DNA of 44,321 bases, from assembly GCA_021803025.1 (NCBI GenBank), contig JAJZQV010000016.1:1-44321 (forward strand), read 5' to 3'. The notes below the pieces were generated by a model. It was given only the letters and a program-made list of their open reading frames with translations. It did no database searches and had not been told where the DNA came from. This document shows, piece after piece, positions 10,557-35,460 of this stretch. The DNA is from Actinomycetes bacterium (GTDB taxonomy: Bacteria; Actinomycetota; Actinomycetes; Propionibacteriales; Propionibacteriaceae). Numbering within the stretch: the first letter of the stretch is position 1; every line of letters starts with the position of its first letter. Position numbers and translations under genes: made by a program.

Positions 10557-10641
10557 GTCCGGGTGGCGGAATAGGTAGACGCGCTAGCTTGAGGTGCTAG
10601 TGCCCGTTAAGGGCATGGAGGTTCAAGTCCTCTCTCGGACA
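10557..10641 (+). tRNA. tRNA-Leu (anticodon GAG)
   Basis: The cloverleaf folds fully. The acceptor is GTCCGGG with CTCGGAC (one G-U pair). The anticodon stem CTAGC/GCTAG holds the loop TTGAGGT with anticodon GAG. A long class II variable arm GCCCGTTAAGGGC follows, then the T arm GAGG-TTCAAGT-CCTC. The discriminator is A and CCA is not encoded. The 3' end forms the left boundary repeat of the cobalamin block. Confidence 0.96.
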
Positions 10642-10642
10642 C
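10622..10642 (+). repeat. attL-like core: 3' end of tRNA-Leu
   Basis: TTCAAGTCCTCTCTC followed by one variable base and GACAC recurs in the same orientation at 35440-35460, with 20 of 21 bases identical. The tRNA-Leu gene itself stays intact on this side. Such duplicated tRNA 3' ends mark sites used by tyrosine integrases. Confidence 0.6.
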
Positions 10643-10745
10643 AGTTTTGGATGGCTCGCTGACTACGTGAAACACAACCTGGCAAGGACTTTCGTCCTTG
10701 TCGGTTGTGGCCACGAGTGGACACAAGTGCCCTCTAGTGGCCATT

Positions 10746-10756
10746 CATTCCCCACG
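10746..10756 (+). repeat. Arm-type repeat inside the left boundary
   Basis: CATTCCCCACG (13 bases match if the following CA is included) lies about 105 bp inside the left core. Two tandem copies lie about 75-95 bp inside the right core at 35344-35365. This arrangement resembles integrase arm-binding sites. The gene-free stretch 10642-11048 holds this repeat, the integrase remnant at 10858 and otherwise nothing I recognise. Confidence 0.5.
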
Positions 10757-10857
10757 CAATCGCACGCCTGGCGCACGGAGGGACTGCCACCCCCTCCGGC
10801 GGAAGTCCACCGATCGGACATGTCACCCGTTACGGACCGTGACGGGAGGGCCGCTCC

Positions 10858-10905
10858 ATGGCTAGCCGGCGTGCGAAGGGTAAGCGTGCCTTCGGTGAGA
10901 TCTCC
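10858..10905 (+). pseudogene. Possible N-terminal remnant of a tyrosine integrase
   Basis: The ATG at 10858 opens a frame beginning MASRRAKGKRAFGEI, the kind of basic start (followed by RKLPSGRY-type sequence) common in actinobacterial phage and element integrases. After about 16 residues the similarity stops and no Arg or Tyr catalytic motifs follow. Its position just inside the left att-like repeat is where an integrase gene would be expected. The evidence is short, so the call is tentative. Confidence 0.4.
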
Positions 10906-11048
10906 AACTGCACCAATCCGGTCGAGTTGAGCACCCTGGCCAGCCACCATCCTCACCTCACGGCGGGAGTGCTTTGGCGACACGACTTGCTTCCTTCTCC
11001 CAGATGGGCGCCGTCGTCCATTGCGTTCATCAGAGCGACTGCTAGGGA

Positions 11049-12548
11049 TCACGCCTTGTTCGCGGTTTCCTCGCGTTGGGCGGCATCGGCCGGTTGCGCC
11101 ACCGGCCGTTGACGGAGCAGGTCCCGACTGAGCACTGCGTACAGGGCCGCGCTGACCGCGAAGCCGAGGAGGTAACCCAGGCTGCTTTCGGCGAAGATAC
11201 CCACGGCTAGCGGCCCGGTGAACAGCGGTGACGCTGTGAATAGCAGGCCGATGATGGTGCCGGCGAGCCACGAGACGAGGGCTGGAAGCCGAACCGCGGG
11301 GTTGACCACGCGCAGGGCGGGATGGGTGGCCTGGGTGAGCTCGCTCGACTCGAGGCAGGCCCTGTCGTAGCCGCGACGAAGCGCCATGTCGACGATGCAG
11401 ACCGCCGCCCAGGTTGCGACACCGCAGGCGAGAAGCTGCACGAAGCTGACCAAGAAGCCAGAGAAGTCTGCTTGCACGACCATGATGTAGACGCCGGCGA
11501 GAAGGATCACCGCTCCGTCGATCACGACGGTACGTGACCGGCGCATCCGGACGCCGAGAGCGAGCAGGTTCAGGCCTGAGGAGTAGAGGCCCATCACGAG
11601 CTGCGCCAACAGGCCACCGATCGCGGCCAGCAGATAGGGAACTGCCAGCCAGGCGGGAAGAACCGCGCCGATCGCAGCGATCGGGTCTGTGGACGTAGCG
11701 AGTCCATCGACGGTGCTGCTCAACAGGATGCCCACGATGATGAGGACGACCAGGGGGGCTGCAGACCCGAGGGTCGTCCAGCCCACGATGGCGGCTCCAC
11801 GTTCGCGTCGAGGCAAGTACCGGGTGTAGTCGGCAGCCAGGTTGGTCCAGCTGATCCCGGTGCTGGCCGCGACGATGCCGGTACCACCGACAAAGGCGAG
11901 CCACGACCCTGGATGAATCGCCAGGACTGCCGTCCAGTGTGTGCTCATGACGAGCCACGGCAGCACGGCCATGGTCAGCAGGCCGAAGGTCCAGGTCACG
12001 AAGCGCTGGACAGCCACGATCGTCGCGTGGCCGAGCCGTCCGAGCAGGAGCGCTGCCACAGAGACAGCGAGCAGGGAGACGAGCATCCATGGGGCGGTCG
12101 CGGGAACATGCCAGACCGTTGTCAACAGTGCGAGGAGCGCGTACGCCGCAATGACAGCCGTCAGCGTCTCCCAGCCGAGAAGGCTTATCCAGCTCACGAG
12201 TGTCGGGGCGAGGTTGCCCTTCCGGCCGAACGGGATCCGGGAAAGGCCGAGCATGGGGGCGCCACCCCATTTGCCCGCGACTCCCAGTACGCCGACCAGC
12301 ACGAAGGACACGACGGACCCCACGATCGCGGCGGCCGCGCCCTGCCACACGTTGAGTCCGAGGGTGGTGAGGACGGCACCGTAGACGATGCCGACGACGC
12401 CGATATTGGCGCCGAGCCACACCCAGAACAGCTCTGAGGCGGTGCCGTGCCGGTGCTCGTCGGCGATGGATTCGATGCCAGCGGTTTCAACCGACCAGGG
12501 TCGGTCTGCAGCCGTATGGTCGGGCAGGTGGTCAGTACGAGGGGACAT
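11049..12548 (-). CDS. NCS1-family nucleobase:cation symporter under B12 riboswitch control
   Basis: The 499-residue membrane protein has about 12 hydrophobic segments and the NCS1 N-terminal signature (VETAGIESIADEHRHGTAS, then WVWLGANIGVVGIVYG). It also has GISWTNLAADYTRYLPR near residue 240, as in CodB-type permeases. NCS1 proteins import purines, pyrimidines, hydantoins or thiamine-type compounds with H+ or Na+. The gene lies directly downstream of a cobalamin riboswitch in the same orientation and follows cbiMNQO. I therefore infer a cobalamin-related cargo such as 5,6-dimethylbenzimidazole or alpha-ribazole. Cytosine uptake, as the family name suggests, is less likely given the regulation. 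The specificity itself is not visible in sequence. Confidence 0.85.
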   Translation of the reverse strand: MSPRTDHLPDHTAADRPWSVETAGIESIADEHRHGTASELFWVWLGANIGVVGIVYGAVLTTLGLNVWQGAAAAIVGSVVSFVLVGVLGVAGKWGGAPMLGLSRIPFGRKGNLAPTLVSWISLLGWETLTAVIAAYALLALLTTVWHVPATAPWMLVSLLAVSVAALLLGRLGHATIVAVQRFVTWTFGLLTMAVLPWLVMSTHWTAVLAIHPGSWLAFVGGTGIVAASTGISWTNLAADYTRYLPRRERGAAIVGWTTLGSAAPLVVLIIVGILLSSTVDGLATSTDPIAAIGAVLPAWLAVPYLLAAIGGLLAQLVMGLYSSGLNLLALGVRMRRSRTVVIDGAVILLAGVYIMVVQADFSGFLVSFVQLLACGVATWAAVCIVDMALRRGYDRACLESSELTQATHPALRVVNPAVRLPALVSWLAGTIIGLLFTASPLFTGPLAVGIFAESSLGYLLGFAVSAALYAVLSRDLLRQRPVAQPADAAQREETANKA

Positions 12549-12597: not shown

Positions 12598-12800
12598 CCT
12601 TTCGCAAGGCCGGTCTCCTGGCTCCCGGATCGCCGCTCTCTCCCGCCTTCCCAGGCCATCGGCCCAGTGGCACATCGGGGAGAACTTCCCGGTCACAGTG
12701 GCGGGCCCGCGCCGGACTCACACCGGCTTCCCGATTCTTCCCCACCGTCATGGCGCTTGTGAGCAGACCCATTGGGCGGGGACACCTTGCGACGTTGCGC
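12598..12800 (-). promoter_or_regulatory. Cobalamin riboswitch upstream of the NCS1 permease
   Basis: Read on the minus strand, the leader contains GAAGCCGGTGTGAGTCCGGC, then GCCACTGTGAC (B12 box) and GGAGCCAGGAGACCGGCC, in the order and spacing of cobalamin riboswitches. It starts after the cbiO stop and ends about 50 nt before the permease ATG. A -10-like TACGGT lies upstream near 12807. Elevated cobalamin would be expected to shut off the permease. Confidence 0.9.
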
Positions 12801-12886: not shown

Positions 12887-13735
12887 TCAACCGAGCCGAG
12901 AACGCCCTGATGCGACCGGCGTGAACTCGAGGTTGACGGCATCGACCAGGGCGTCGATGTCCCGGATGCCGCGGAGGTCGAGGCCGAGTTGGGCGGCGGC
13001 CTGCAGCACCAAGGGCCTGCGCAGCCGTGCGCCCATCACCAGGTCGGCGTCGCCGAGCATCTCGGTCGGACTTCCATGCCGCACGAGCCCGTCGACCAAG
13101 ACGGCGACGGAGTCGGCCCACCTGAGCGCGAAGTCCACGTCGTGGGTGGCGATCACCACCGTCGTATGTGCGGCGAGGAGGCATTCGAGTGCGCTGACCA
13201 TCTCATCGACGCCGTGCGGATCGAGGCCCGCTGTCGGCTCGTCCAGGAGGACGATGGAGGGCTGCATGGCCAGGGCACCGGCGATGGCTACGCGCTTGCG
13301 CTGGCCGAAGGAGAGTTCCTGGATGGGCCGCTCGGCAAGGTCGGTGATTGAGAGCAGCGACAAGGCTTGACCGACCCTGCCGCGAACCTCTGCCTCGGAT
13401 AGGCCCAGGTTCATCGGGCCGAAGGAGATGTCCCGGTAGACGTCGGCGGCGAAGAGCTGGTCGTCAGGGTTCTGTGCCACGAGTTGCACGACTTGTCGGT
13501 GCGTCTTCAGCGCCGCCCGGCCGTAGCCGACAGCCTGACCGTCGACCAGTACGTGACCTGCCGAGGGCCGCACCGACCCGGCGAGGGTGCGCAGGAGGGT
13601 GGTCTTTCCCGATCCGTTCGCGCCCAGCAGCGCCAGCCGCTTGGCCTTGGGTATGTGCAGGTGGGCGCCGTTCAGGACTTGCCGGTGACCGAAAGAGACC
13701 TCGACCCCATCAGCAGCGAGCTCGCGGGGGCTCAT
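12887..13735 (-). CDS. cbiO: Cobalt ECF transporter ATPase
   Basis: The 282-residue ABC ATPase energises cobalt import with CbiM, CbiN and CbiQ. It has Walker A GANGSGKTT (about residue 37), the Q-loop in VAQNPDDQLF, the signature LSFGQRKRVAIAGAL, Walker B IVLLDEPTAGLDPHG and the switch His in IATHDVDF. The start is ATG 13735 and overlaps the cbiQ stop (ATGA). It is the last gene of the cbiMNQO set. The C-terminal tail (about 235-282) resembles that of other CbiO proteins. Confidence 0.94.
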   Translation of the reverse strand: MSPRELAADGVEVSFGHRQVLNGAHLHIPKAKRLALLGANGSGKTTLLRTLAGSVRPSAGHVLVDGQAVGYGRAALKTHRQVVQLVAQNPDDQLFAADVYRDISFGPMNLGLSEAEVRGRVGQALSLLSITDLAERPIQELSFGQRKRVAIAGALAMQPSIVLLDEPTAGLDPHGVDEMVSALECLLAAHTTVVIATHDVDFALRWADSVAVLVDGLVRHGSPTEMLGDADLVMGARLRRPLVLQAAAQLGLDLRGIRDIDALVDAVNLEFTPVASGRSRLG

Positions 13736-14490
13736 CTCAGCACCGCCCAGGCGACCGAGGTGCCGGTGAGCACGGCCAGGAGCGCGATGCTCCCCGCCAG
13801 AAACCGCCCCGACCGCACCCGGTCCGGCTCCAGGGTGCACAGCCTGTCGTCGTAGCCCCGACCCGAGAGCCCGGCCTCCAGACGCCGCGCCCGGTCCCAC
13901 GACCTGACGAACAGCACCGCGACTCCCATCGAGGCTGAGCGCATCGCCGCCGACCGGGTCGCGTAGCCCAGCCTCGCCACCTGGGCGTCATGGATCGCGG
14001 CGGCGCTCTCCAGAAGCCCCACAGTGAACCGGTAGATCAGCGAACCGATCTCGATCAGAGGATCCGGGACGTGCGCCCGACGCAACGCCGCGAACAGGTC
14101 GACGATCGGAGTTGAGCAGGCCAACGTGAACATTGCCAGCGTCGCAGCGACCGCTCGCACCGCCAGCGCTGCGGCCATAGCCGATCCTGCCGGCGTCACC
14201 TCCAGCCCGGGTCCTGCGTCCCAGGTCGGGCTCACGGCCACCGTCGCGACACCGATCAGGATCGAGAGCAGTGGCAGCCAGCTGATGCGCCACAACCTGG
14301 TCAGACCGACGCGGATCGGACCCAGCAGAAGGGCCAGACTCACCGACGCCACCGCTACCCCACCGGGTACGGGAGGCAGGGTGACCGCCGCCAGCAGGAG
14401 CCCGAGCGTGAGGACAGCCTTGTCGCGCACCGACCTCGTGCGCCAAGGGCTCGTCCAGGCGGCTTGGTCCATCGCGAGCCCGTGGGCCAT
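13732..14490 (-). CDS. cbiQ: Cobalt ECF transporter transmembrane subunit
   Basis: The 252-residue membrane protein couples the ATPase to the substrate-binding CbiM/CbiN. Five to six hydrophobic segments are visible. The coupling-helix motif AALRRAHVPDPLIEIGSLIY and a second, LEAGLSGRGY, are the family's conserved contact sites for CbiO. ATG 14490 overlaps the cbiN stop and its own stop overlaps the cbiO start, giving tight translational coupling. Confidence 0.9.
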   Translation of the reverse strand: MAHGLAMDQAAWTSPWRTRSVRDKAVLTLGLLLAAVTLPPVPGGVAVASVSLALLLGPIRVGLTRLWRISWLPLLSILIGVATVAVSPTWDAGPGLEVTPAGSAMAAALAVRAVAATLAMFTLACSTPIVDLFAALRRAHVPDPLIEIGSLIYRFTVGLLESAAAIHDAQVARLGYATRSAAMRSASMGVAVLFVRSWDRARRLEAGLSGRGYDDRLCTLEPDRVRSGRFLAGSIALLAVLTGTSVAWAVLR

Positions 14491-14849
14491 CAGAGGGCCC
14501 CTTCGGGCGCGTCGCCGACCGGCGGTGTCATCGAGTCTTCGTGGAATGCCTTCTCGGCTCTCCGGCGTCCCCAATACCCGCCGACCGCGAACCCCAGGAC
14601 CGCTCCTCCGATCGCGGCTTGCAGCGCGAACAGGCCGGACTCGATCTCGGCGGACTTCGGCTGGAAGAACGGGGTGAACCAGGGTTTGTAGTTCGGGTCC
14701 GTCGCCTGGATCTGCGAAGTGGCCGCACTGTCGGTGCCGCCGAATCGGGTGACCGGGTTGGTGTGCATGCCACCGACGACGAAGCTGATCGCGAAGATCA
14801 CAACCAGAGCGACCAGGAGCCCGATAGTGACCGCTGTGCTGCGCCTCAT
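14490..14849 (-). CDS. cbiN: Cobalt transport accessory protein
   Basis: The 119-residue protein has two transmembrane segments with an extracytoplasmic loop. The loop shows the CbiN pattern PNYKPWFTPFFQPKSAEIES, and the second segment reads GLFALQAAIGGAVLGFAVG. CbiN helps CbiM load Co2+. The start may be ATG 14849 or GTG 14858, which adds three residues and overlaps the cbiM stop; neither has a perfect ribosome-binding site. Confidence 0.9.
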   Translation of the reverse strand: MRRSTAVTIGLLVALVVIFAISFVVGGMHTNPVTRFGGTDSAATSQIQATDPNYKPWFTPFFQPKSAEIESGLFALQAAIGGAVLGFAVGGYWGRRRAEKAFHEDSMTPPVGDAPEGAL

Positions 14850-14850
14850 C

Positions 14851-15537
14851 TCAGGCACCTGTCTTCGCGTGCTCCGCCGTCTTGATCACGCCGAGTCTCT
14901 CGAGCTCAGGTCGGGCGACGTCGGTCAGCAGCCTGAATACCAGCACGCCGAGGATCCCTTCGGCGATCGCGAGGGGGATCTGGGAGATCGCGAAGATGCT
15001 CATGAACTTGGCGACGGAACCGAGCAGGCCGCTGACCGGGTCGGGGAAGGCGATGCCGAGCTGGACCGATGTGACTACGTAGGTTGACAGGTCCGCGAAC
15101 GCCAGGGCCGAGAAGACGCCGACGTTCTGGTTCCACCCGAGCCTGCTGGACAGCCGCCAGCATGTGTAGCCCACCCAAGGCCCGGCGATGCCCATGCTGA
15201 ACACGTTGGCTCCGAGCGTGGTGATTCCGCCATGGGCGAGGAGCAGGGCCTGGAAGATCAGCACGATCGTGGACAGGAACGCCATCACTGGTGGACGGAA
15301 CAGAACGGCGCCGAGCCCCGTGCCGGTGGGGTGCGACGAGCTGCCGGTCACCGACGGCAGCTTGATGGAGGAGAGCACGAACGTGAACGCTCCGGCGGCA
15401 GCGAGGAGAAGCCTCGACTCGGGGTCTTCCTTCGACTGCTTGATGACCTGTCGAGCGCCATGGACCACGAACGGCGCCGAGAGCGCGTACCAGACGACGC
15501 AGTCTGTGATGGGCAGAAAACCCTCAGCGATATGCAT
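14851..15537 (-). CDS. cbiM: Cobalt ECF transporter substrate-binding subunit
   Basis: The 228-residue membrane protein begins MHIAEGFLP. That N-terminus is essential in this family because the N-terminal amine and His2 bind the metal. [20 protein letters not shown] (about residues 60-80) holds the additional metal-ligand His, and [19 protein letters not shown] is also typical of CbiM. The start is fixed by the MHIAEGFLP motif at 15537. The gene is led by a cobalamin riboswitch, so cobalt uptake is expected to fall when cobalamin is plentiful. Confidence 0.95.
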
Positions 15538-15554
15538 GAGTTCCCCTTCAAAGG

Positions 15555-15720
15555 ATGTTGGCCTCAGGAACCGACGCCCACATCCGTGTCTGGCTCCCCC
15601 AGTCGTAGGGGTCACAGTGGCCGATCCGTCCCGGATTCACACCGGGTTCCGGACGTAGGCGGCATTTGATCCTTGCACCCCTGCTTTCAGGGCCGACGGG
15701 GAACCCCCTCATCCAGCCTC
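15555..15720 (-). promoter_or_regulatory. Cobalamin riboswitch upstream of cbiMNQO
   Basis: On the minus strand: GGAACCCGGTGTGAATCCGG, then GCCACTGTGACCCC (B12 box), then GGGGGAGCCAGACACGG. The element ends just before cbiM. It faces away from a second riboswitch (15795-15945), so two B12 sensors leave one short promoter region in opposite directions. Confidence 0.9.
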
Positions 15721-15794
15721 GTCTTCGGCTATCGGGCAGGGATGTCCCACCCGACTGTGGACCGCCACCCCCTTCGCGGTCACCCATGGGGGCT

Positions 15795-15945
15795 GTGCCA
15801 GACTGAGCGTCGCAGCGATGTGTCGAGGAACTCCGGTGAGCCCACTTGGGCGATTCCGGGACGGTCCCGCCACTGTTATCGACCGTGCCAGGCACGCCAC
15901 CGGGAGCCAGGAACTCGCCTTGCTGCAGAGCGAATATCGGGCGAG
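15795..15945 (+). promoter_or_regulatory. Cobalamin riboswitch upstream of cobA
   Basis: On the plus strand: GAGGAACTCCGGTGAG (15825), CCGCCACTGTTATCGACC (B12 box, about 15867) and GGGAGCCAGGAACTCGCC (15902). The GAGGAGG ribosome-binding site follows at about 15953. The promoter must lie in the about 75 bp shared with the opposite riboswitch. Confidence 0.9.
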
Positions 15946-15963: not shown

Positions 15964-16890
15964 ATGGCAACGCCTGCCCATCGGCACGGCCGCCCTGACA
16001 CCAGGCTTGGGATTCCAGAGTCCGACCTCCGCATCGAACACCCCGCGGCGCCTGTGCGCCACGTGCATCAGATGATGGAAGGGACAGACATGATCACGGA
16101 GACGCCCCGAACCGGGCAGGTCATCCTGGTCGGAGGCGGCCCGGGAGACCCCGACCTGCTTACCGTCGGCGGGTTGCGCGCCCTCAAGGCAGCGGACGTC
16201 GTGCTCTACGACCACCTCGCCCCACTGACCTGCCTTGCCGAGACCAAGCCAGACGCGATCCTGCTCGACGTCGGCAAGATCCCGCGAGGCTGCCAGACGG
16301 CTCAGGCGGACATCAACACGCTCTTGATCGAGCACGCCCGCAATGGCTCAACCGTCGTCCGGTTCAAGGGTGGCGACCCGTTCGTACTCGGCCGCGGCAG
16401 TGAGGAATGGCTCGCCTGCGCGGGCGCCGGCATCCCCGTCCAGGTGATCCCAGGCGTCTCATCCGCGATCGCCGGACCGGAGCTGGCCGGGATCCCCCTC
16501 ACGCATCGGGGCATCACGCAGAACTTCTCCGTCGTCTCCGGCCACGTCGGTCCGGACCATCCCGCTTCGACCGTCAACTGGGACGCTCTGGCCAGGTCGT
16601 CGGGCACGATCGTGATCCTCATGGGGGTCGCCCACCTCGCGGACATCTGCAGCGGGCTCGTCGCTCGGGGCCTGGACCCCGACACTTCAGCGGCGATCGT
16701 GGCCAAAGCCGCGTCGCCCGACCAGAAAGTGCTCCGCGGCACCGTCGTCACCCTCCCCGACCTGGCTGCTGCGGCCGAGGTAGAGCCGCCAGCTCTCATC
16801 GTGATCGGTGAGGTTGTCGCCCTCAACCTCACTCCCGAACCTGCGGTCCAGCAGCCTCGGCCGGCGACACTCGACACCGCGAACGCATGA
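15964..16890 (+). CDS. cobA: Uroporphyrinogen-III C-methyltransferase
   Basis: SUMT methylates uroporphyrinogen III at C2 and C7 to give precorrin-2, the first committed step toward cobalamin and siroheme. The core has the tetrapyrrole-methylase motifs VGGGPGDPDLLT, VVLYDHL, VRFKGGDPFVLGRGSEE and VIPGVSSAIAGPELAGIPLT. Two starts compete. ATG 15964 has GAGGAGG seven bases upstream. ATG 16090 has AAGGGA upstream and gives a protein starting just before the conserved domain. The longer form adds 42 residues with five His (HRH, HVH), unusual for SUMT. It is controlled by the riboswitch immediately upstream. Confidence 0.92.
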   Translation: MATPAHRHGRPDTRLGIPESDLRIEHPAAPVRHVHQMMEGTDMITETPRTGQVILVGGGPGDPDLLTVGGLRALKAADVVLYDHLAPLTCLAETKPDAILLDVGKIPRGCQTAQADINTLLIEHARNGSTVVRFKGGDPFVLGRGSEEWLACAGAGIPVQVIPGVSSAIAGPELAGIPLTHRGITQNFSVVSGHVGPDHPASTVNWDALARSSGTIVILMGVAHLADICSGLVARGLDPDTSAAIVAKAASPDQKVLRGTVVTLPDLAAAAEVEPPALIVIGEVVALNLTPEPAVQQPRPATLDTANA

Positions 16891-16964
16891 CGCCATGCTG
16901 AAGGCCCGCAGTCCACTCCACGTACGTGCGAGCTTGTCCGCGACAGCCGGCTGATCGGCCCGCC

Positions 16965-17816
16965 ATGGACGCCTTCCGCAGGGTGCGCGACCTCCTGATC
17001 CTCGACGACTGCTGGGTGATCGCCGCGGACTCAGTCGGGGGGATCGGCCCGAAGCCTGCCGACACGGTCCGTGCTGATGCCCGGACCGTTGCGCACTTCG
17101 CGCTCCGGGTGCCACTTCTCGAAGTGATCTGCTCGGGCGCACGCCCCGTGGCCGTCATCGACAACTTGTGCGTCGAGCTGGATCCCACCGGGCGCGAGAT
17201 GCTTGACGAGATCCGGCTCCTCGCCGCCCAAGCCGGCATCGTCTCGGAGGCGATCACCGGCAGCACCGAGGAGAACGTGAGGACCCAGGCCACCGGCGTC
17301 GGAGTGACCGTCATGGGACGGATCGGGCCAGGCGGGCTGCTGCCCGGCCACTCCCATCCTGGAGATGTGATCCTGTGCGCCGGACTGCCGCTGTCTGCGC
17401 CCCATGACGACGTTCGGATCGGGCACCCCAGTCAGGTCCCGGTGGCCGCGGTGTCGGCGGTCGTCGCGGCAGGACTCGTTCACGACGCGTTGCCCGTAGG
17501 TTCGAAGGGCTTGACCTGGGAGGTGGCCCAGCTGGCGGAGTCGGCGGGTCTGCGCGCCGTCTGGGTCGAACACGCAGCGTTTTCACTCACAGCGTCCGGC
17601 GGACCGGCAAGCTGCGTGCTCCTGAGCTGCGCCCCCGAGTCTGTCGAGGTTGTCCTAGGCGCGATCGGCGGAGGCACGCCCATCCACGTGGTTGCTCGGG
17701 TCGTCCACAGCTACTCGAGGTCTGAGGAGCCACACGGACCCGCATCAGGGACCACTGCGCTCAGCGAGGCGCGAGAGGTATCCCCGCCTCGAGGCGGGCC
17801 GGTACCCCCGGTATAG
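16965..17816 (+). CDS. cblS: PurM-like ATP-binding protein, probable alpha-ribazole kinase (CblS-like)
   Basis: The 283-residue protein belongs to the AIR-synthase/PurM superfamily. It has WVIAADSVGGIGPKPADTV (about 17-35), ARPVAVIDNLCVELDPTG (about 66-83) and AITGSTEENVRTQATGVGVT (about 104-123). These match proteins annotated in Firmicutes as CblS, which phosphorylates alpha-ribazole to alpha-ribazole phosphate and so salvages the lower-ligand nucleoside without CobT. It lies 74 bp after cobA, inside the cobalamin block, which supports this role. The start at ATG 16965 lacks a strong ribosome-binding site; GTG 16926 is an alternative. The C-terminal 25 residues look unstructured and overlap a palindrome. 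Confidence 0.65.
   Translation: MDAFRRVRDLLILDDCWVIAADSVGGIGPKPADTVRADARTVAHFALRVPLLEVICSGARPVAVIDNLCVELDPTGREMLDEIRLLAAQAGIVSEAITGSTEENVRTQATGVGVTVMGRIGPGGLLPGHSHPGDVILCAGLPLSAPHDDVRIGHPSQVPVAAVSAVVAAGLVHDALPVGSKGLTWEVAQLAESAGLRAVWVEHAAFSLTASGGPASCVLLSCAPESVEVVLGAIGGGTPIHVVARVVHSYSRSEEPHGPASGTTALSEAREVSPPRGGPVPPV
17783..17798 (+). repeat. Perfect 16-bp palindrome at the end of cblS
   Basis: CCCGCCTCGAGGCGGG is self-complementary with 8-bp arms and no loop, within the last codons of cblS and about 15 bp before the next riboswitch promoter. With no loop it is a poor RNA hairpin unless breathing bases open, so it may act as DNA, or as a terminator stem with a 4-nt loop. Confidence 0.4.
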
Positions 17817-17825
17817 CCTGACCGC

Positions 17826-17945: not shown

Positions 17946-18002
17946 CTCGTGGGATCTGACCAGCCCTCGGAGCAGGGGCGGAGGACATTCCCTCCCTCTC
18001 CG

Positions 18003-28036: not shown

Positions 28037-28083
28037 CCCTGCAACCTCCTGTGACGAACTGAGCTCAGCCTTTCACAGCCCCC

Positions 28084-28656
28084 TCAGGCCTTGACCCACG
28101 CCCACTGGACTACCGGACGCAGAGGACGCCACGACCAGAACCGCCCCAACGGCTCGGCGCTGTCGATGCTGATCCGGGACAGGGAGCCGCCCAGTACCCG
28201 GTGCAGATCAGTGAGCGTCCTCTCGGTCTCCAGGGTCACACCGTGCACGACCAGACGTCCGGACGTGCGCAGCGCCGCCATGCAGGCTTCCACGACCTCG
28301 GTGACCGCGCCGCCTCCGATGAACACGGCGTTGGGCCGCGCCAGGCCCGGGAACAGTCCTTCCGCGTCCCCCTGGACGATCTGCATAAGGCCGGGTGCGA
28401 GCCGGTCGACATTGCGACGGGCGCGTTCGGCACGGACCGGGTCACGTTCGATCCCGACCGCGTGCGCACCTGGTGCCGACCGCGCCCACTCGATGCCGAC
28501 CGCGCCCGAACCGGCGCCCACGTCCCAGAGAAGCTGATCCGGCAGGGGCCGCAGGTGTGCGAAAGCCGCGGCCCTCAGCAGCCGCTTCGTGATGAGTCCG
28601 TCATGCTCGAAAGTCTCGTCGGGAAGCCCCGGCGCGGGACCCAGCTCGTCAGTCAC
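28084..28656 (-). CDS. cbiT: Cobalt-precorrin-6B C15-methyltransferase (decarboxylating)
   Basis: This Rossmann-fold SAM methyltransferase of 190 residues corresponds to the C-terminal half of CobL. It decarboxylates and methylates at C15. It shows PGLPDETFEHDGLITKRLLR at the N-terminus, the SAM site LWDVGAGSGAVGIEWAR (about 43-59), VGIERDPVRAERA and VFIGGGAVTEV. The GTG start at 28656 lies 7 nt after TAGTGT with no ribosome-binding site, so a leaderless mRNA is likely. Confidence 0.94.
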   Translation of the reverse strand: MTDELGPAPGLPDETFEHDGLITKRLLRAAAFAHLRPLPDQLLWDVGAGSGAVGIEWARSAPGAHAVGIERDPVRAERARRNVDRLAPGLMQIVQGDAEGLFPGLARPNAVFIGGGAVTEVVEACMAALRTSGRLVVHGVTLETERTLTDLHRVLGGSLSRISIDSAEPLGRFWSWRPLRPVVQWAWVKA

Positions 28657-28716
28657 GAGCGTGACACTATCCAGCCGAGCCGCCGGGCTCTCGGTCCGCG
28701 TCGATGTGGCCCCCCG

Positions 28717-29484
28717 TCAAGCCGTGGGCCGGGTTCTGGCCGGGCGAAGAGCCTCGAGCCATTCCACGACGGCTGCCGTGCTGGCGACCTCGTCGATGCC
28801 TCGTGGGGGCGCCGGTCGGGCCACCATGAACACCGGGACCCCGAGGCGCGCCGCCGCGTCCAGCTTGGACGCCGCGGCGTGGCCGCCTGAGTCCTTGCTG
28901 ACGAGCGCCGAGATGCGCTCCGTACGGAGCATGGTCAGCTCGCTCTCGAGGTCGAATGGGCCTCGCTGAAGTCGCAGTTCCCACCCTGACCGTTCCAGCC
29001 ATCCGTCCGGAACCTCTGCCACGCGTGCCAGGACGAGGGGCAGGGCACGGTAGGCGTCAAGCGGTTGGCGTCCAACCGTCAGCAGGACACGACGCCGCTC
29101 CGATGCCCCGACCTCGGCCACCGCGGCAGCTGCTGCACGGTGGTCGGGGACCCAGGTCCACCCTCCGGCGTCGCCACGCTTTGCCCAGCTGGGCCGCGAC
29201 AGACGCACCAGCGGTGTCCCCGTGACGGTGCAGGCCCTGGACGCGTGCGTCGTCATCGTCGCCGCGAACGGGTGGGTCGCGTCGACGACGGCGTCGACGT
29301 TGTTGGCCCGCAGATACGCGGCGAGGCCCTCCACACCGCCGAACCCGGCGATGCGGTCGGCACCGCCGGTGCGGGCCTCTGCCGTCCTCCCTGCCACCGA
29401 CTCGACGAGGTCGATCCCGGTCGATGCCAGGGAGGCCGTCAGCTCGCGGCCCTCCGTTGTACCGCCCAGTAGGAGCACTCTCAC
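28717..29484 (-). CDS. cobK: Precorrin-6A / cobalt-precorrin-6A reductase
   Basis: The 255-residue NAD(P)H-dependent reductase (CbiJ in the anaerobic naming) begins VRVLLLGGTTEGREL. It contains DAVVDATHPFAATMTTHASR (about 60-79), VLLTVGRQPLDAY and SALVSKDSGGHAAASKLDAA, all typical. The GTG at 29484 is 7 nt after TAGGGT and lacks a ribosome-binding site; a second GTG two codons on is possible. Its promoter is only about 15 bp from that of the opposing riboswitch before cbiB. Confidence 0.94.
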   Translation of the reverse strand: MRVLLLGGTTEGRELTASLASTGIDLVESVAGRTAEARTGGADRIAGFGGVEGLAAYLRANNVDAVVDATHPFAATMTTHASRACTVTGTPLVRLSRPSWAKRGDAGGWTWVPDHRAAAAAVAEVGASERRRVLLTVGRQPLDAYRALPLVLARVAEVPDGWLERSGWELRLQRGPFDLESELTMLRTERISALVSKDSGGHAAASKLDAAARLGVPVFMVARPAPPRGIDEVASTAAVVEWLEALRPARTRPTA

Positions 29485-29524
29485 CCGACCGACCCTAGGA
29501 CTTTGGGCGCTGATATCGTGAGCA

Positions 29525-29625
29525 ACGCGCGAAGCAGCGAAGCCGGTGAGAACCCGGTGCTGTCCCGCAACGGTGATGGTCCCCTCTGTCGGGGGCCGAG
29601 CCCGGTCGCCTGCTCGACGCGCATC
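29525..29625 (+). promoter_or_regulatory. Cobalamin riboswitch upstream of cbiB
   Basis: GAAGCCGGTGAGAACCCGG (29538), CCCGCAACGGTGATGG (B12 box region) and CCGAGCCCGGTCGCC (about 29596) define it. TATCGT at 29514-29519 is a fitting -10. A GAAGGAC ribosome-binding site follows before the cbiB GTG. Its core differs by about one base over 40 from the riboswitch at 17.86 kb, so one is probably a duplicate of the other. Confidence 0.9.
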
Positions 29626-29653
29626 CTGGCCCTCGAACGCGAAGGACGTACGG

Positions 29654-30604
29654 GTGAGTCGGCTTCTCGGAATGACCCTGGGCGTGCTGGCTGACGCCGT
29701 CCTCGGCGACCCGAAGAGCCACCATCCCGTCGCCGGATTCGGAGCCGTGGCCTCCCGGATCGAACGGGCCCTGTACGCCGACTCCACAGCGCGGGGAGCC
29801 TGCTACACCGGCGTCACGATCGCCCTCGTGGCTGTGGTGGGTGTCACTGCGGAGCGCGCGTCGCGGCATCTCCCCTTCGCCCACACCCTTGTCACCGCGG
29901 CCGCGACCTGGGCCGCGCTCGGAGCACGGTCGCTCGTCAAGGAAGGCACCGTGATGGCCGACAGACTCGAGTCTGGGAACCTCGACGCCGCCCGCGCCCA
30001 GCTCCCGAACCTCTGCGGACGCCGGCCCGACGAGCTGGACCCGTCCGAGCTCGCCCGGGCCACGGTCGAGTCCCTCGCCGAGAACACGAACGATGCGGTG
30101 GTCTGCACCCTGTTCTGGGGGGCGGTCGCCGGCGTGCCGGGCATCCTCACCCATCGCGCTGTCAACACGCTCGACGCGATGGTCGGCCACCGCAACCCCC
30201 GCTATGCCCGGTTCGGGACGGCGTCGGCCCGGCTGGACGACGCCCTGGCCTGGCTGCCGGCACGGATGACCGGGGGCATGGCCTGCCTCATGGCCCCGCT
30301 GGCCGGCGGATCCACCTCTGGTGGTCTACGCGCCCTGCACCGGGACCACGCGAACCATCCGAGTCCCAACGGCGGCTGGTGTGAGTCCGCGTGGGCCGGC
30401 GCACTCCACGTCCGGCTTGGAGGCACAAACGTCTATGGGGACAGGACCGAGGTGCGCGGGACACTCGGCGATGCTGATGCTCCTCGCCCGGACGCCCAGG
30501 CCGTGCGACGGGCATCAGTCCTGGTCGCGTGGGTGACCGCGGCGGCTGCCACGCTGAGTGTTGTCGCCACCCTTCCCGCTGAGCTCAGGAGGGCAACCCT
30601 GTGA
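29654..30604 (+). CDS. cbiB: Adenosylcobinamide-phosphate synthase
   Basis: CbiB attaches (R)-1-amino-2-propanol phosphate to adenosylcobyrate in the membrane. The 316-residue protein has LADAVLGDPKSHHPVAGFG at the start, ATVESLAENTNDAVVCTLFW (about 136-155), RAVNTLDAMVGHRNPRYARFG and the end GGTNVYGDRTEVRGTLGD. Several hydrophobic helices lie between these. The GTG start at 29654 follows GAAGGAC. GTGA overlap with cobQ shows coupling. Confidence 0.94.
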   Translation: MSRLLGMTLGVLADAVLGDPKSHHPVAGFGAVASRIERALYADSTARGACYTGVTIALVAVVGVTAERASRHLPFAHTLVTAAATWAALGARSLVKEGTVMADRLESGNLDAARAQLPNLCGRRPDELDPSELARATVESLAENTNDAVVCTLFWGAVAGVPGILTHRAVNTLDAMVGHRNPRYARFGTASARLDDALAWLPARMTGGMACLMAPLAGGSTSGGLRALHRDHANHPSPNGGWCESAWAGALHVRLGGTNVYGDRTEVRGTLGDADAPRPDAQAVRRASVLVAWVTAAAATLSVVATLPAELRRATL

Positions 30605-32055
30605 CCGGCCTTCTCATCGCCGGCACATCCTCGGATGCCGGGAAGTCGTTGGTCGTCACCGGGCTCTGTCGAGCGCTGGTCCGACGCGGCATCGACGTCG
30701 CGCCCTTCAAGGCCCAGAACATGTCGAACAACTCGATGGTCTGCGCTGACGGCGCCGAGATCGGTCGCGCCCAGTATCTACAGGCTCGAGCAGCCAAGCT
30801 CGAACCCACCAGCGCCATGAACCCTGTCCTGCTGAAGCCCGGCACCGACCGTCGCGCCTTCGTCGTGCTGCGCGGACACCCGGGGGGGACGCTGGAGGCA
30901 GGAGAGTACGCAACGGGACGCCGTCACTTGGCCGAATCCGCCTACGCCGCCTACGACGAGCTGGCCGCTGCCCACGAGCTGGTGGTGGTGGAAGGTGCCG
31001 GGTCCCCGGCCGAGATCAACCTCCGCGGCGGCGACTACGTCAATCTCGGACTGGCCGAACGCTACGGTCTTCCGGCCGTAGTCGTGGGCGACATCGACCG
31101 CGGAGGCGTACTGGCGGCGCTGTTCGGAACGTGGGCGATCCTCGAGGGCGCCGACCGAGACCTTCTTGCGGGATATGTCATCAACAAGTTCCGTGGCGAC
31201 CAGACGATCCTCGACCCCGGGTTGGCGGAGCTGACGCGGCGTACCGGTCTGCCATGCTTCGGCGTTCTCCCGTGGCTCGAGGGCGTGTGGCTCGACGGTG
31301 AGGACGCTCTGCGCGTCGATCGCTGGGCCCCAGCGGCAGACGCGTCTCTGACGGTGGCAGTGGTGCGGCTCCCCCGGATCTCGAACTCGACCGACGTGGA
31401 CGCACTCGCCCACGAGACCGGCGTCCGAGTGCTCGTCACCACTGATCCGGAGGTATGCGAGGTGGCCGACCTTGTCGTCCTCCCGGGATCTCGCTCCACC
31501 GTCGAGGACCTCCAGTGGCTGCGCTCCCGGGGGCTCGATGACGTTCTCGCTCGGCGTCACGCGGCGGGACGTCCGGTGCTCGGGGTGTGCGGCGGGTTCC
31601 AGATGCTGGCCGAGTTCATCCATGATGACATCGAGTCCGACGCGGGTACGGTCAGCGGCCTCGGCCTGCTGCCCGTCGAGGTGACGTTCGACGCTGACAA
31701 GACCACCGCGCTCTCGACGCATGCCTGGGGTGATCTGCAGGTGCCAGGCTACGAGATCCACCACGGACGTCACCGGGTCACGGGAGAGGCTGTGTCCTTC
31801 CTCGACGGGTGCTCGGTGGGGACCTCCGCGGGAACCATGCTCCACGGCTGCCTCGAGGACGACGCCTTCCGACGTGCCTACCTCTCCGAGGTGGCAGCGG
31901 CCACCGGGAGCCCTTGGCGTCCGCGTCCCGCTGCCGTCGGGTACGGCGAAGCACGCGAGCGGATGATCGATACGCTCGCCGATGCGGTCGAGACCCACCT
32001 CGACGTGGACGCACTCCTCGCCTTGACGGGCCAGGGCAGGGCGGCGGGTCAGTGA
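30601..32055 (+). CDS. cobQ: Adenosylcobyric acid synthase (glutamine-hydrolysing)
   Basis: CobQ amidates four carboxyl side chains of the corrin. The 484-residue protein has the P-loop-like LIAGTSSDAGKS, APFKAQNMSNNS, VVEGAGSPAEINLR and VVGDIDRGGVLAALFGT in the synthetase half. The glutaminase half from about 250 has the Cys nucleophile in GVCGGFQMLAE (about 333) and the His in LHGCLEDDAFR. GTG 30601 overlaps the cbiB stop; its own stop overlaps the cobO start. Confidence 0.95.
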   Translation: MTGLLIAGTSSDAGKSLVVTGLCRALVRRGIDVAPFKAQNMSNNSMVCADGAEIGRAQYLQARAAKLEPTSAMNPVLLKPGTDRRAFVVLRGHPGGTLEAGEYATGRRHLAESAYAAYDELAAAHELVVVEGAGSPAEINLRGGDYVNLGLAERYGLPAVVVGDIDRGGVLAALFGTWAILEGADRDLLAGYVINKFRGDQTILDPGLAELTRRTGLPCFGVLPWLEGVWLDGEDALRVDRWAPAADASLTVAVVRLPRISNSTDVDALAHETGVRVLVTTDPEVCEVADLVVLPGSRSTVEDLQWLRSRGLDDVLARRHAAGRPVLGVCGGFQMLAEFIHDDIESDAGTVSGLGLLPVEVTFDADKTTALSTHAWGDLQVPGYEIHHGRHRVTGEAVSFLDGCSVGTSAGTMLHGCLEDDAFRRAYLSEVAAATGSPWRPRPAAVGYGEARERMIDTLADAVETHLDVDALLALTGQGRAAGQ

Positions 32056-32627
32056 GCGGTACCCGCGAGCTCCGACACGCGTCCCGCCTGATCGTCCACA
32101 CCGGGGAGGGCAAGGGCAAGTCGACGGCTGCCTTCGGGCTGGGCCTTCGCGCATGGGCGCAAGGGTGGTCGGTCGGGGTGTTCCAGTTCGTCAAGTCCGG
32201 CTCCTGGCGTCCCGGCGAACACGCCGCCTACACCGCGCTTGACGAGATCCACCGAACCACCGGCCAGGGTGGCCCCATCGAGTGGCTCACAATGGGCGCC
32301 GGCCGGACCGGTCTGCGGGCCACCCAGGATGTGGACCAGCAGGCCCTCTCGCGTGCCGGCTGGGCCCAGGTGGTGGACAGGCTCGCCGCCCAGACGCACC
32401 GCCTCTACATCCTCGATGAGCTCAACCACCCCCTCGCCAAAGGCTGGCTCGACCTCGATGAGGTCCTCGACGTCCTCACCATACGTGCCGGCGTCCAACA
32501 CGTTGTGGTCACCGGACGTGGCGCCCCCCAGCGTCTGATCGAGGCGGCCGACCTCGTCACGGACATGACCAAGGTCAAGCACCCCTTCGACAAGGGCGAA
32601 CGCGGGCAGGCGGGGATCGAATGGTGA
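32052..32627 (+). CDS. cobO: Corrinoid adenosyltransferase
   Basis: CobO (BtuR family) transfers the adenosyl group from ATP to cob(I)yrinic acid diamide or later corrinoids. The 191-residue protein has the P-loop HTGEGKGKSTAAFG (about 17-30), VFQFVKSG, LYILDELNHPLAKGW and VVVTGRGAPQRLIEAADL, and ends MTKVKHPFDKGERGQAGIEW, a strongly conserved tail. GTG 32052 overlaps the cobQ stop (GTGA). Confidence 0.95.
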   Translation: MSGTRELRHASRLIVHTGEGKGKSTAAFGLGLRAWAQGWSVGVFQFVKSGSWRPGEHAAYTALDEIHRTTGQGGPIEWLTMGAGRTGLRATQDVDQQALSRAGWAQVVDRLAAQTHRLYILDELNHPLAKGWLDLDEVLDVLTIRAGVQHVVVTGRGAPQRLIEAADLVTDMTKVKHPFDKGERGQAGIEW

Positions 32628-35047
32628 CCCTTCCACGTTTCGTCATCGCCGCCGCGCAGTCGGGGGCAGGAAAGACGACGGTCGCCTTCGGGCTCATGGC
32701 GGCGTTCCGGGCCGCGGGGGTGCGCGTCGCACCGTTCAAGGTGGGGCCCGACTACATCGACCCCGGCTATCACTCCCTCGCCTCCGGCCGGCCCGGGCGC
32801 AACCTCGACCCCTGGCTCTGCGGGCCCGAGCTGATCGCGCCGCTCATGCTGCACGGAGCCTACGCCGCCGATCTCGCGATCATCGAAGGAGTGATGGGGC
32901 TCCTCGACGGACGCCTGGGAGCCACCTCAGTCGGCGATGGTTCGGTCCGCGGCTTCGGGTCGACGGCCCACGTGGCTCGTCTTCTTGGCGCTCCCATCGT
33001 GCTCGTCCTGGATGCGGCACACGCTTCGCGCACCTTGGCCGCGGTCGCGCACGGGCTGTCCACCCACCCGGACTCACCTGGCATCGCGGGTGTCATCCTC
33101 AACCGGACAGGCGCCGAGCGGGCGGTCGCGGAGGTAACCGACGCACTCGCCGCAGTCAGTCTGCCAGTGCTGGGAGCGATCCCTCGGACCTCCCACCTGG
33201 AGATCCCGTCTCGTCACCTCGGCCTGGTCCCGGCTGGCGAACGGCGCGCGGCCCAGGCGGTGGTGGACGCGGCCGCTGCGCTCGTCGCAGCGCACGTCGA
33301 CCTCGATGCCGTCGGCGCACTTGCAGCACTTGCCCCGCCGGTCGACAGCGAGCCGTGGCGGCCCGAGGATATGGTCCGTCCCGTGTCGGGACGCCCGCGG
33401 ATCGCGGTCGCAAGTGGCAAGGCGTTCACCTTCCGCTACTCCGAGACCACCGAGCTGCTCACGGCAGCGGGATGCCAGGTCGTCGAGCTCGACCCGCTGT
33501 CAGACCCGACCCTGCCGCCCGGAACGGCCGGTCTCTACCTGGGCGGGGGCTTTCCCGAGGTGTACGCCGAGGCGCTCGCCAGCAACGCCTCGCTGCGCGC
33601 CGACGTTGCCGCTGCGGTCGCCTCGGGGATGCCCACGTATGCGGAGTGCGCCGGTCTTCTGTACTTGTGCCGCAGCCTCGACGGCCAGCCGATGGTTGGC
33701 GCCGTCCCGCTGGACGCAGTCATGGGGCCGCGGCTCACCCTGGGCTATCGGGAGGCCATCGCCGAGACCGACTCCGTAGTGACACGGCCCGGCGAGACGG
33801 TACGTTCCCACGAGTTCCACCGCACCGCGACCACAGGAGGCACGGCTGCGGCTTGGCGCCTCGGGGACCGCCTGGAAGGGGTCGCCGGTGCCACGCTTCT
33901 GGCCTCGTACCAGCACGTGCACTGGGCGGGCCACCCGGTGATGGCGCAACGGTTCGCCGACGCGGCATCGACGTTCGCCGCCTCCGGGTCCCGCTGGTCA
34001 CCAGGGCCGGTGCTGATCTCCTGCCCGCCGGACCTGCACCATCACGGGCTCGCCGACCTCGCGCCCGGTGCGGTCGACCTCGCCGTCAACATCCGGGAGA
34101 TGCGGCCCCCACAGTGGCTAGTCGACGCACTGACGTCCGACCCCAGCCGGTGGGCCGAGTACCCCGATCCTGCACCGGCCCGCGAAGCGATCGCAGCCAG
34201 GCACCGCGTTCGTCCCGATCAGGTCCTGCCGACGGCGGGGGCGGCTGAGGCGTTCGCCCTGATCGCGCGGGGGCTACACCCACACAGAGCGGTCGTGGTC
34301 CACCCGCAGTTCACCGAACCGGAGGCAGCCCTCCTCCGCGCCGGCGTCGCAGTCCAACGTGTCCTGCTTCGCGACGACGACGGTTTTGTCCTCGAACCCG
34401 ACCGCGTGCCGGAGGAAGCAGACCTGGTCTTCGTCGGAAACCCCACCAACCCGACCGGCGTCCTTCACCAGGCCGAGACGCTGCGCGCATTAGTCCGGCC
34501 CGGACGCACCATCGTCGTTGACGAAGCGTTCATGGACTTCGTCCCTGGCGAGGCCCAGACCGTGGCGGGATCACCCGGCCTCCTAGTCGTGAGGTCGGTA
34601 GGGAAGATGTGGAGCGTACCCGGACTGCGCGCCGGCTACGTCGTCGCCGACACCGAGACGATCGCACGGCTCGCCGACCAGCAAGGACCATGGCCGGTCT
34701 CCATCCCGGCCCTCGATGCGCTGCTGGTCTCATGCAGTCGCACGGCCGTCTCCGCCGCCGATCAGGTCGCCCGAGCGATCGAGACCGATCGCGACGCATT
34801 GGTCATGGGACTGGCTCAGGCGGGCTTCCGGACGGCGGGGACGCCCCGGACGCCCTTCGTACTGGTGGACACCTCTCCTGCAGGCACGGCCTCAGTGCGT
34901 CCCGCCCTGGCGAGGGCCGGCTTCGCCGTCCGCCGGTGCGAGACCTTCCCAGGGCTGGGCCCGTCATGGATTCGCATCGCGGTCCGAACACCGGCCGTGA
35001 ATACCCTGTTCCTCGAAGCCCTCCGCGGGTTGATGCCGGCCAGCTGA
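32621..35047 (+). CDS. cbiA/cobD: Fusion: cobyrinate a,c-diamide synthase and L-threonine-phosphate decarboxylase
   Basis: The protein has 808 residues. Residues 1 to about 455 are CbiA: AAQSGAGKTTVAFGLM, VGPDYIDPGYH, IIEGVMGLLDG and the glutaminase with Cys in TYAECAGLLYL (about 345) and SHEFHRT. From about residue 464 a PLP aminotransferase-fold enzyme follows, of the CobD (Salmonella)/CobC (Pseudomonas) type, which makes (R)-1-amino-2-propanol phosphate. It has VNIREMRPPQWLVDAL, VFVGNPTNPTGV, VVDEAFMDF and the PLP Lys in RSVGKMWSVPGLRAGY (about 662). The start is ATG 32621 or GTG 32624, overlapping cobO. It is the last gene of the block. Confidence 0.93.
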   Translation: MVTLPRFVIAAAQSGAGKTTVAFGLMAAFRAAGVRVAPFKVGPDYIDPGYHSLASGRPGRNLDPWLCGPELIAPLMLHGAYAADLAIIEGVMGLLDGRLGATSVGDGSVRGFGSTAHVARLLGAPIVLVLDAAHASRTLAAVAHGLSTHPDSPGIAGVILNRTGAERAVAEVTDALAAVSLPVLGAIPRTSHLEIPSRHLGLVPAGERRAAQAVVDAAAALVAAHVDLDAVGALAALAPPVDSEPWRPEDMVRPVSGRPRIAVASGKAFTFRYSETTELLTAAGCQVVELDPLSDPTLPPGTAGLYLGGGFPEVYAEALASNASLRADVAAAVASGMPTYAECAGLLYLCRSLDGQPMVGAVPLDAVMGPRLTLGYREAIAETDSVVTRPGETVRSHEFHRTATTGGTAAAWRLGDRLEGVAGATLLASYQHVHWAGHPVMAQRFADAASTFAASGSRWSPGPVLISCPPDLHHHGLADLAPGAVDLAVNIREMRPPQWLVDALTSDPSRWAEYPDPAPAREAIAARHRVRPDQVLPTAGAAEAFALIARGLHPHRAVVVHPQFTEPEAALLRAGVAVQRVLLRDDDGFVLEPDRVPEEADLVFVGNPTNPTGVLHQAETLRALVRPGRTIVVDEAFMDFVPGEAQTVAGSPGLLVVRSVGKMWSVPGLRAGYVVADTETIARLADQQGPWPVSIPALDALLVSCSRTAVSAADQVARAIETDRDALVMGLAQAGFRTAGTPRTPFVLVDTSPAGTASVRPALARAGFAVRRCETFPGLGPSWIRIAVRTPAVNTLFLEALRGLMPAS

Positions 35048-35197
35048 CCTCTGCGGGCCCTCACCACGCCTGCATCCACAAGTCGACCGGAGGTTGGTCG
35101 CTGCAAAGTCGGGCCGAGCTCCAAGTCCCGTCGAGGGCCAACTTGCGAGTCGTCCATCCTTAAGCCGTCCCCTTGCATACGTCCCCGCGCCGATCAT

Positions 35198-35353
35198 CTA
35201 CAAGCGGCTGTCCGCTCGCCCCGCGCCCTGCGATCCAGACTCTCCAGGGACGGCGGTACGAGTCGCGGTGACATCATCCGGCAGGGCCTCGAGGTAGCCT
35301 TCCACCAGCGCCTGGCCTACCCGGCTGGGCGGCTCGGACGACCCATTCCCCAC
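35198..35353 (-). other. Short coding-like frame inside the right boundary
   Basis: A GTG-started frame of 51 residues includes PPSRVGQALVEGYLEALPDD and ends near GAGRADSRL. It is the only coding-like stretch I see in the 440 bp between cbiA/cobD and the HEPN remnant. Its start lies within the arm-like repeats. I do not recognise it; an excisionase remnant would fit the position, but nothing in the sequence proves it. Confidence 0.2.
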
Positions 35354-35365
35354 GCATTCCCCACG
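35344..35365 (+). repeat. Two tandem arm-type repeats inside the right boundary
   Basis: CATTCCCCACG occurs twice head to tail. The same 11 bases lie inside the left boundary at 10746-10756. Paired with the core repeats this suggests integrase arm sites of an integrated element. Confidence 0.5.
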
Positions 35366-35439
35366 ACAAGGGAGAGAAGATGACTCTCTTCAGCCATAAG
35401 GCCTTGTCAGTGCGCCATTGCAACACATCACCCGAGAGC

Positions 35440-35460
35440 TTCAAGTCCTCTCTCTGACAC
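35440..35460 (+). repeat. attR-like core: copy of the tRNA-Leu 3' end
   Basis: TTCAAGTCCTCTCTC-T-GACAC matches the tRNA-Leu 3' end (10622-10642) at 20 of 21 positions in the same orientation. No cloverleaf can be drawn around this copy, so it is not a tRNA gene. It marks the right limit of the cobalamin block. Confidence 0.6.

Follow-up and report, generated by a model that had tools for sequence, protein, structure and literature searches.

A B12 synthesis gene set bordered by copies of a tRNA-Leu 3' end in a Propionibacteriaceae genome: a probable tRNA-targeted genomic island beside a second element

Introduction

How did a near-complete set of genes for B12 synthesis come to lie between a tRNA-Leu(GAG) gene and a second copy of that gene's 3' end? 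To make B12 de novo, a cell needs some 20 or more genes. This ability is patchily distributed among bacteria, and its horizontal gain has been argued earlier from gene clusters and composition. Genomic islands and prophages that target tRNA genes with actinophage-type tyrosine integrases use the tRNA 3' end as their core, which is duplicated at the far end of the element; they usually carry direct repeats near the core and an integrase adjoining attL, and may form tandem arrays at one tRNA. We analysed a stretch of 44,321 nucleotides (the window) from a Propionibacteriaceae draft genome of 191 contigs, which is probably a metagenome-assembled genome (MAG), and compared it with six congeners (G001-G006, the window genome being G000). 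In our reading, 10643-35439 is probably a tRNA-targeted genomic island, of the type that relies on a tyrosine integrase, with B12 cargo and now fixed in place.

Results

The tRNA target, the attachment-site pair and the arm repeats

The ends of the block comprise the following features:
10557..10642, +, tRNA-Leu(GAG), the integration target (ARAGORN, Rfam, empty-site comparison)
10622-10642, +, attL, the left attachment core, i.e., the final 21 bp of tRNA-Leu(GAG)
10643..10857, +, left arm of the island, with a single exact CATTCCCCACG at 10746-10756; kept beside tRNA-Leu genes elsewhere
10858..10911, +, 5' remnant of a truncated tyrosine integrase gene, about 18 codons (DNA homology to contig C19)
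35344..35439, +, right arm, with tandem CATTCCCCACGCATTCCCCACG at 35344-35365 (match in G002:C118)
35440..35460, +, attR, the right attachment core

A sequence-only reading of this DNA had proposed that the tRNA 3' end recurs at 35440-35460, and our analysis bears this out: the two cores match at 20/21 positions on the same strand, and the similarity extends to 25/28 around them (10618-10645 versus 35436-35463). With up to three mismatches allowed, only these two sites in the window match the core pattern, and 100 shuffles gave no match; with up to two, there are three sites in the 3.37-Mb genome, namely both window copies and C95:7815-7835. This rarity in the genome, together with the shuffles, rules out a chance origin of the core repeat.

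The same reading had placed 11-bp repeats just inside both ends, and CATTCCCCACG is indeed exact at 10746 and, in tandem, at 35344 and 35355. Since the count in the window is weak by itself (four matches with up to one mismatch versus 1.06 expected, a number reached by 3 of 100 shuffles), the telling evidence is the placement of the copies. Genome-wide the exact repeat is found five times, three of them in the window, and its reversed pattern not at all; the other two sites (C13 and C155) have no tRNA in the 3 kb covered. The tandem pattern, with up to two mismatches, occurs at six places across the seven genomes of the genus (reversed control, zero), four of which are left arms at tRNA-Leu genes and two right arms. 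The left arm is conserved at tRNA-Leu(GAG) in G002 and at tRNA-Leu(CAG) in both G002 and contig C19 of the window genome, and at those sites it bears the 11-bp repeats in tandem. On the right, 35345-35372 is identical over 28/28 positions to G002:C118.

The integrase-like N-terminal fragment reported earlier at 10858 proved to be a real integrase start: its DNA homology to C19 runs to about 10911, and the C19 frame continues as the N terminus of a tyrosine integrase, with 46% identity over 63 aa to the integrase of contig C95 (E 2e-8). As only this stub is left in the window, present mobility of the island is not supported. The break at about 10911 would also fit an older element of the same family at tRNA-Leu(GAG), between whose arms the B12 block was later put by homologous or illegitimate recombination, with removal of most of the integrase, so that the arms did not bring the B12 genes; integrase starts lying at other tRNA-Leu sites without B12 genes point the same way. 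We consider such a later insertion unlikely, for the reason given below with the second integration module.

The cargo

Between tRNA-Leu(GAG) and attR lies a near-complete gene set for B12 synthesis covering cobalt uptake, the corrin ring, adenosylation and the nucleotide loop, together with cobalamin riboswitches:
11049..12548, -, NCS1-type nucleobase permease, preceded by a cobalamin riboswitch (PF02133, 2e-42; NCBIfam matches under cut-off)
12602..12792, -, cobalamin riboswitch (RF00174, 121.4 bits)
12887..15615, -, cobalt transporter: cbiO, cbiQ, cbiN, cbiM (Pfam)
15794..15936, +, second cobalamin riboswitch (RF00174, 32.0 bits, barely over the gathering threshold of 31.5)
15964..23272, +, uroporphyrinogen-III C-methyltransferase, AIR-synthase-like protein, cobT, cobU, cobS (split over frames), cbiL, cbiF, cbiE
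18003-18581, -, histidine phosphatase, within the preceding block
22984..26273, +, cbiG-cbiH fusion (coding part starting inside the drawn ORF) and cbiX-precorrin-2 dehydrogenase fusion
26260..29787, -, cbiD, cbiC, cbiT, cbiJ
29546..35047, +, cbiB, cobQ, cobO (within 31809-32627), cobB-cobC fusion

For the ORFs of 10643-35439 that were compared with Pfam or NCBIfam, the families recognised included neither an intact integrase or relaxase nor any gene for transfer or phage structure. An integrative and conjugative element was rejected on the lack of relaxase or conjugation genes among these ORFs, and a prophage on the lack of recognised phage structural or replication genes in the same set. The island appears to be stranded, given that its integrase survives only as a stub and that its cobS is broken across frames.

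A comparison of composition inside and outside, suggested earlier, set the block apart from its left flank: GC3 is 0.815 inside versus 0.910 (p = 3e-5), and the codon-usage difference was reached by 0 of 2000 permutations, though overall GC hardly differs (69.6% inside, 70.3% left). The right flank is lower in overall GC (68.0%), and the GC3 contrast with it is weak (five genes, p = 0.02). The gene set was hand-picked, and four ORFs were shortened to what is probably their coding part. Of the 23 ORFs inside, among which the 63% minimum falls, two are probably not real genes in the form drawn: 17868-18641, which has no family and lies opposite the histidine phosphatase, and 20272-20895, whose frame is not that of cobS; cobO was left out.

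The same site in congeners and the second element

Empty sites, which the earlier reading had proposed to look for in relatives, were found in two of the six congeners. When the left flank through the tRNA was joined to the sequence after 35460 and used as a query, it aligned across the junction in one 505-bp piece in G004 (81%) and over 179 bp in G003 (93%); in both, uninterrupted window sequence stops within three bases of the tRNA end. G002 has the same left arm and integrase start, followed by other genes, and, on another contig, the same right arm before the same outer flank. In G006 neither element follows the tRNA; other DNA lies there, with backbone-like relatives in G001, G002 and G005. 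CbiD was found in 26 of 295 genomes, including the window genome and, as a fragment, G005, and was not found in the remaining five congeners; the B12 genes are patchy in the genus, although these absences are not firm because the congener assemblies are drafts of 69-97% completeness.

The genomes of the genus are fragmented, and the contigs of both G001 and G005 end at tRNA-Leu(GAG), which raises the question of whether the repeat and its two flanks were wrongly joined in assembly. Since G002 independently has both arms and the outer flank, such an artefact is the least probable of the explanations that we weighed.

The sequence-only reading had the element end at 35460, but mobile DNA does not stop there, as the remnant of a second element (element B) follows:
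35461..36201, +, element B, left part; starts directly after tRNA-Leu(GAG) in G003 and G004
37448..37790, -, element B integrase remnant (75.6% over 86 aa to the C95 integrase)

The left part is 77-85% identical to C95 in three pieces, and the integrase remnant matches C95 at the DNA level with 87% over 37696-37789. In G002:C118, too, the right arm stands ahead of the element-B flank. The island and the adjoining remnant of element B form a tandem array; the earlier island reading is supported, while the array around the island had been missed. Past element B (38-44 kb) the window has a single close congener match, G005:C122, and hence the comparison does not show the outer limit of the array.

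An ancestral B12 cluster, present at this site in the genus and lost from most congeners by precise excision or deletion, would accord with G005, whose B12 genes are 89-90% identical and whose tRNA-Leu(GAG) is followed by seven bases of the window left arm before the contig ends. In a CobBC tree, used as a guide only, the window and a MAG contig, L115, group with other Propionibacteriaceae, so no distant donor is needed. The tree covered 75 of 81 loci and the window; rows that contained stops or matched over a short stretch were removed, and the window CobBC was trimmed to residues from 381 on, many other rows being longer. Against this stand G006, with neither element after its tRNA, codon usage unlike the left flank, the position between the tRNA and element B, which is the usual one for a later arrival, and the block of L115, which lies at a tRNA-Ile core. 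We regard ancestry at this site as very improbable.

The B12 block beside another integration module

L115, a 3.9-kb contig of low coverage, has the same B12 cluster (88.5% identical), though no more than its right end is visible; next to this end are a tyrosine integrase that is uninterrupted and a tRNA-Ile(GAT) core. Hence, the B12 block is found together with two integration modules. This is what carriage by an integrative element would lead one to expect, and it argues against the later insertion of the block between older arms, even though the homology between L115 and the window ends at 35026, before the right arm is reached, as such an insertion would allow. G002 carries the L115-type integrase (89%) and core without the B12 block beside them, and a search of G005 with L115 gave no good match. 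Among 84 B12 loci examined, a relative of the three query integrases was found only at L115, showing that B12 clusters do not generally lie beside such integrases.

A search of viral attP sites, also proposed earlier, succeeded in part: one viral contig in IMG/VR carries an integrase with the exact 21-bp core next to it, whereas the core plus CATTCCCCACG was not found together there, and the tandem arm pattern had no match in IMG/VR. Among plasmids, CbiD relatives occur in 84 of 72,556 records, and no close plasmid source of the cluster emerged, the best CbiD being about 61-62% identical.

Discussion

To account for the attachment pair, the conserved arms, the empty sites in two congeners and the patchy B12 genes, we propose that an element whose core equalled the 3' end of tRNA-Leu(GAG), and whose attachment site was flanked by the 11-bp repeats, putative integrase-binding sites, recombined with the tRNA gene. 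Recombination would have preserved a complete tRNA at the left end and placed the core copy at 35440-35460. The integrase may thereby have brought in the B12 block, presumably in one step; that the pathway moved as one unit, as suggested earlier, is well supported, yet both this and the single step are our inference. Entry between the tRNA and element B would have produced the tandem array and would make the island the younger of the two. Later, the cutting of the integrase to a stub and damage to cobS may have fixed the island.

A tRNA-targeted genomic island is of a known kind, and the duplicated core, the direct repeats and the tandem array are all shared with such islands and prophages; where these have an integrase next to attL the window has a stub, and it also differs from them in having a cofactor pathway as cargo. 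It is this cargo, and its appearance with two modules, that is notable. As described in the reports available to us, the B12 genes of the Lactobacillus reuteri pdu-cbi-cob-hem island are likewise thought to have been gained horizontally as a cluster (Morita et al., 2008, cited in PMC5064896), in another phylum and coupled to propanediol use. Plasmid pSZ77 of Geobacter lovleyi is a laterally acquired replicon with B12 genes (15/24 genes; PMC3403914), but differs from the probable island of the window in being a plasmid and not integrated at a tRNA gene. B12 clusters as patchy as in the window genus are found in Streptococcus sanguinis, as opposed to its near relative S. gordonii (PMC5462765), and in Morganella morganii, as opposed to other Proteeae (PMC3521468); the passages concerned describe no attachment sites for them.

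In the locus studied here a vehicle can be named: there are attachment sites and arms, the site is empty in some relatives, and the cargo recurs next to a second integration module. We tentatively suggest, with slightly less than even confidence, that in one genus of the Propionibacteriaceae the pathway for de novo B12 synthesis circulates as an exchangeable cargo block in different tRNA-specific integrase modules, at tRNA-Leu(GAG) and tRNA-Ile(GAT), which in other genomes carry other cargo. If so, B12 self-sufficiency would be a mobile accessory trait in that genus, and our findings make it testable whether a whole cofactor pathway moves between cells as a single site-specific unit.

Ends of the B12 island and empty sites in congeners

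The feature in the window is a real genomic island with B12 cargo, and the following coordinates define the elements discussed here:

10557-10642, tRNA-Leu(GAG)
18003-18581, minus strand, histidine phosphatase
about 37448-37790, remnant of the integrase of a second element, element B

As the sequence-only reading had claimed, the final 21 bases of tRNA-Leu(GAG) are repeated on the same strand at 35440-35460, with one difference. Allowing up to 3 mismatches, the window has no further copy of this core and none of 100 shuffles contains one; the genome as a whole (3.37 Mb in 191 contigs) holds three occurrences at up to 2 mismatches. The claimed arrangement of CATTCCCCACG, once at the left end and twice at the right, was also recovered (exact copies at 10746, 35344 and 35355; five genome-wide, three of them in the window; none of the reversed pattern). 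With 1 mismatch allowed, however, the window contains four matches, a count equalled by 3 of 100 shuffles; hence, the number of CATTCCCCACG copies by itself is little proof. One IMG/VR contig carries the exact core adjoining a tyrosine integrase, with no tRNA found in the 12.8 kb of that contig that were covered. The integrase-like fragment proposed at the left end does begin as an integrase, but is only a stub of about 18 codons. The island is probably immobile now.

We compared seven genomes of the genus, including that of the window. The left neighbourhood of tRNA-Leu(GAG) is common to five congeners (G001, G002, G004, G005 and G006) and lies outside the contig of G003, which begins shortly before the tRNA. 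In G004 and G003, the sequence that follows 35460 comes directly after tRNA-Leu(GAG), which is the empty site that had been anticipated: the joined-flank query aligned in a single piece (505 bp at 81% and 179 bp at 93%, respectively), and the alignment of the uninterrupted window ended at most 3 bases from the tRNA end. Neither query aligned past the tRNA in G006, whose adjacent DNA appears backbone-like given its relatives in G001, G002 and G005 (starting 106-274 bases into the query); the match in the window's genome, on contig C49, starts only 2.8 kb in. A G001 contig starts right after the core, leaving the stretch where an island copy would sit outside it, and opens with the flank of element B, followed about 2.7 kb further by the backbone-like DNA of G006. 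The G005 contig stops 7 bases past the tRNA, inside sequence of the window's left arm.

The expected compositional difference was seen in mean GC3 (0.815 inside, 23 ORFs, vs 0.910 on the left, 9 ORFs; p = 3e-5) and codon usage (inside vs left, 0/2000 permutations), but overall GC was 69.6% inside vs 70.3% on the left. On the right, GC3 was 0.868 (5 ORFs; inside vs right p = 0.02) and GC 68.0%.

Element B

The DNA beyond 35460 is mobile as well. A copy with an uninterrupted integrase is found on contig C95 of the window's genome, where it lies immediately downstream of a gene that Pfam assigns to the class I aminoacyl-tRNA synthetases, presumably ileS; this copy (L015, 2388-7844) sits by the synthetase gene, not at a tRNA. 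A weaker match on C151 (72% over 98 bp) follows a tRNA-Leu(CAG)-type core, and G003 also retains an integrase remnant. Since the sequence is mobile and the window keeps the integrase remnant, the B12 island has the tRNA on one side and an older element on the other; as is usually reasoned for tandem arrays, we infer that it arrived after element B. A dispersed repeat (36918-37434) has about 10 other matches of at least 280 bp at 87-91% in the genome, three of them less than 1 kb from a contig start. It contains a near-palindrome (37134-37152/37221-37239) and a shorter part (about 37327-37421) found in dozens of places, mostly in the window's genome and G003.

B12 cargo and its distribution

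The island encodes cbiMNQO, uroporphyrinogen-III methyltransferase, cobT, cobU, cobS, cbiL, cbiF, cbiE, cbiG-cbiH, cbiD, cbiC, cbiT and cbiJ, and also cbiX with a precorrin-2 dehydrogenase domain, cbiB, cobQ, cobO and a cobB-cobC fusion. The histidine phosphatase could be an alpha-ribazole phosphatase. In the window, the single-frame Pfam match to CobS covers the middle only, and both ends lie in other reading frames as judged by eye (20255-21010), which makes its function doubtful; judging from this frame-split gene, the final pathway step may be broken. Two cobalamin riboswitches were detected, one barely over threshold. A strong one precedes an NCS1 nucleobase-type permease (11049-12792), which, as a guess, may import a lower-ligand precursor. 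An AIR-synthase-like protein (16926-17816) in the B12 cluster is reminiscent of the alpha-ribazole kinase CblS.

CbiD occurs in 26 of 295 genomes (E up to 1e-10), including the window's; among its six congeners it was found at this threshold only in G005, as a fragment. The G005 locus (L190, contig C1, about 2739-2750) lacks about 350 bp of window 28343-28690, reaching into cbiT. G003 DNA is 78-83% identical to the cobU-cobS part, so late-step B12 genes are present there without CbiD. In the CobBC tree, the window pairs with L115, a 3.9-kb contig of MAG Actinomycetes bacterium BP8.bin115 (support 1.0), next to a clade of Propioniciclava, Propionibacterium sp. oral taxon 192 and genome G112 (0.91).

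Possible exchange of B12 cargo between integration modules

The island type is already known, and its cargo is unusual. Horizontal acquisition of the B12 pathway has been reported, according to PMC6461909. A limited search of the literature on B12 islands found no report of a tRNA-integrated island with the whole pathway. In G002, tRNA-Leu(GAG) is followed by the left arm seen in the window and by its integrase start, and the next genes encode a CtaG-domain protein and a heavy-metal P-type ATPase, which suggests copper handling. Contig C118 of G002 carries the window's right arm (28/28 bases), a run of N and then the element B flank; the left and right ends in G002 would belong to one element.

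L115, which covers only the right end of the B12 cluster, is 88.5% identical to window 33774-35026 near the cobBC end. Beyond lie a 297-aa frame, hydrophobic by eye and with no Pfam match, an uninterrupted tyrosine integrase frame (465 aa, PF00589) and a repeated tRNA-Ile(GAT) 3' end, the whole tRNA being absent there. G002 also has this integrase (89%) with the same core, and no match to the B12 part of L115 was found beside it. Together, these contexts indicate two modules (an integrase with its tRNA core), each with two cargos, B12 being one cargo of both. The island offers a good case for module exchange.
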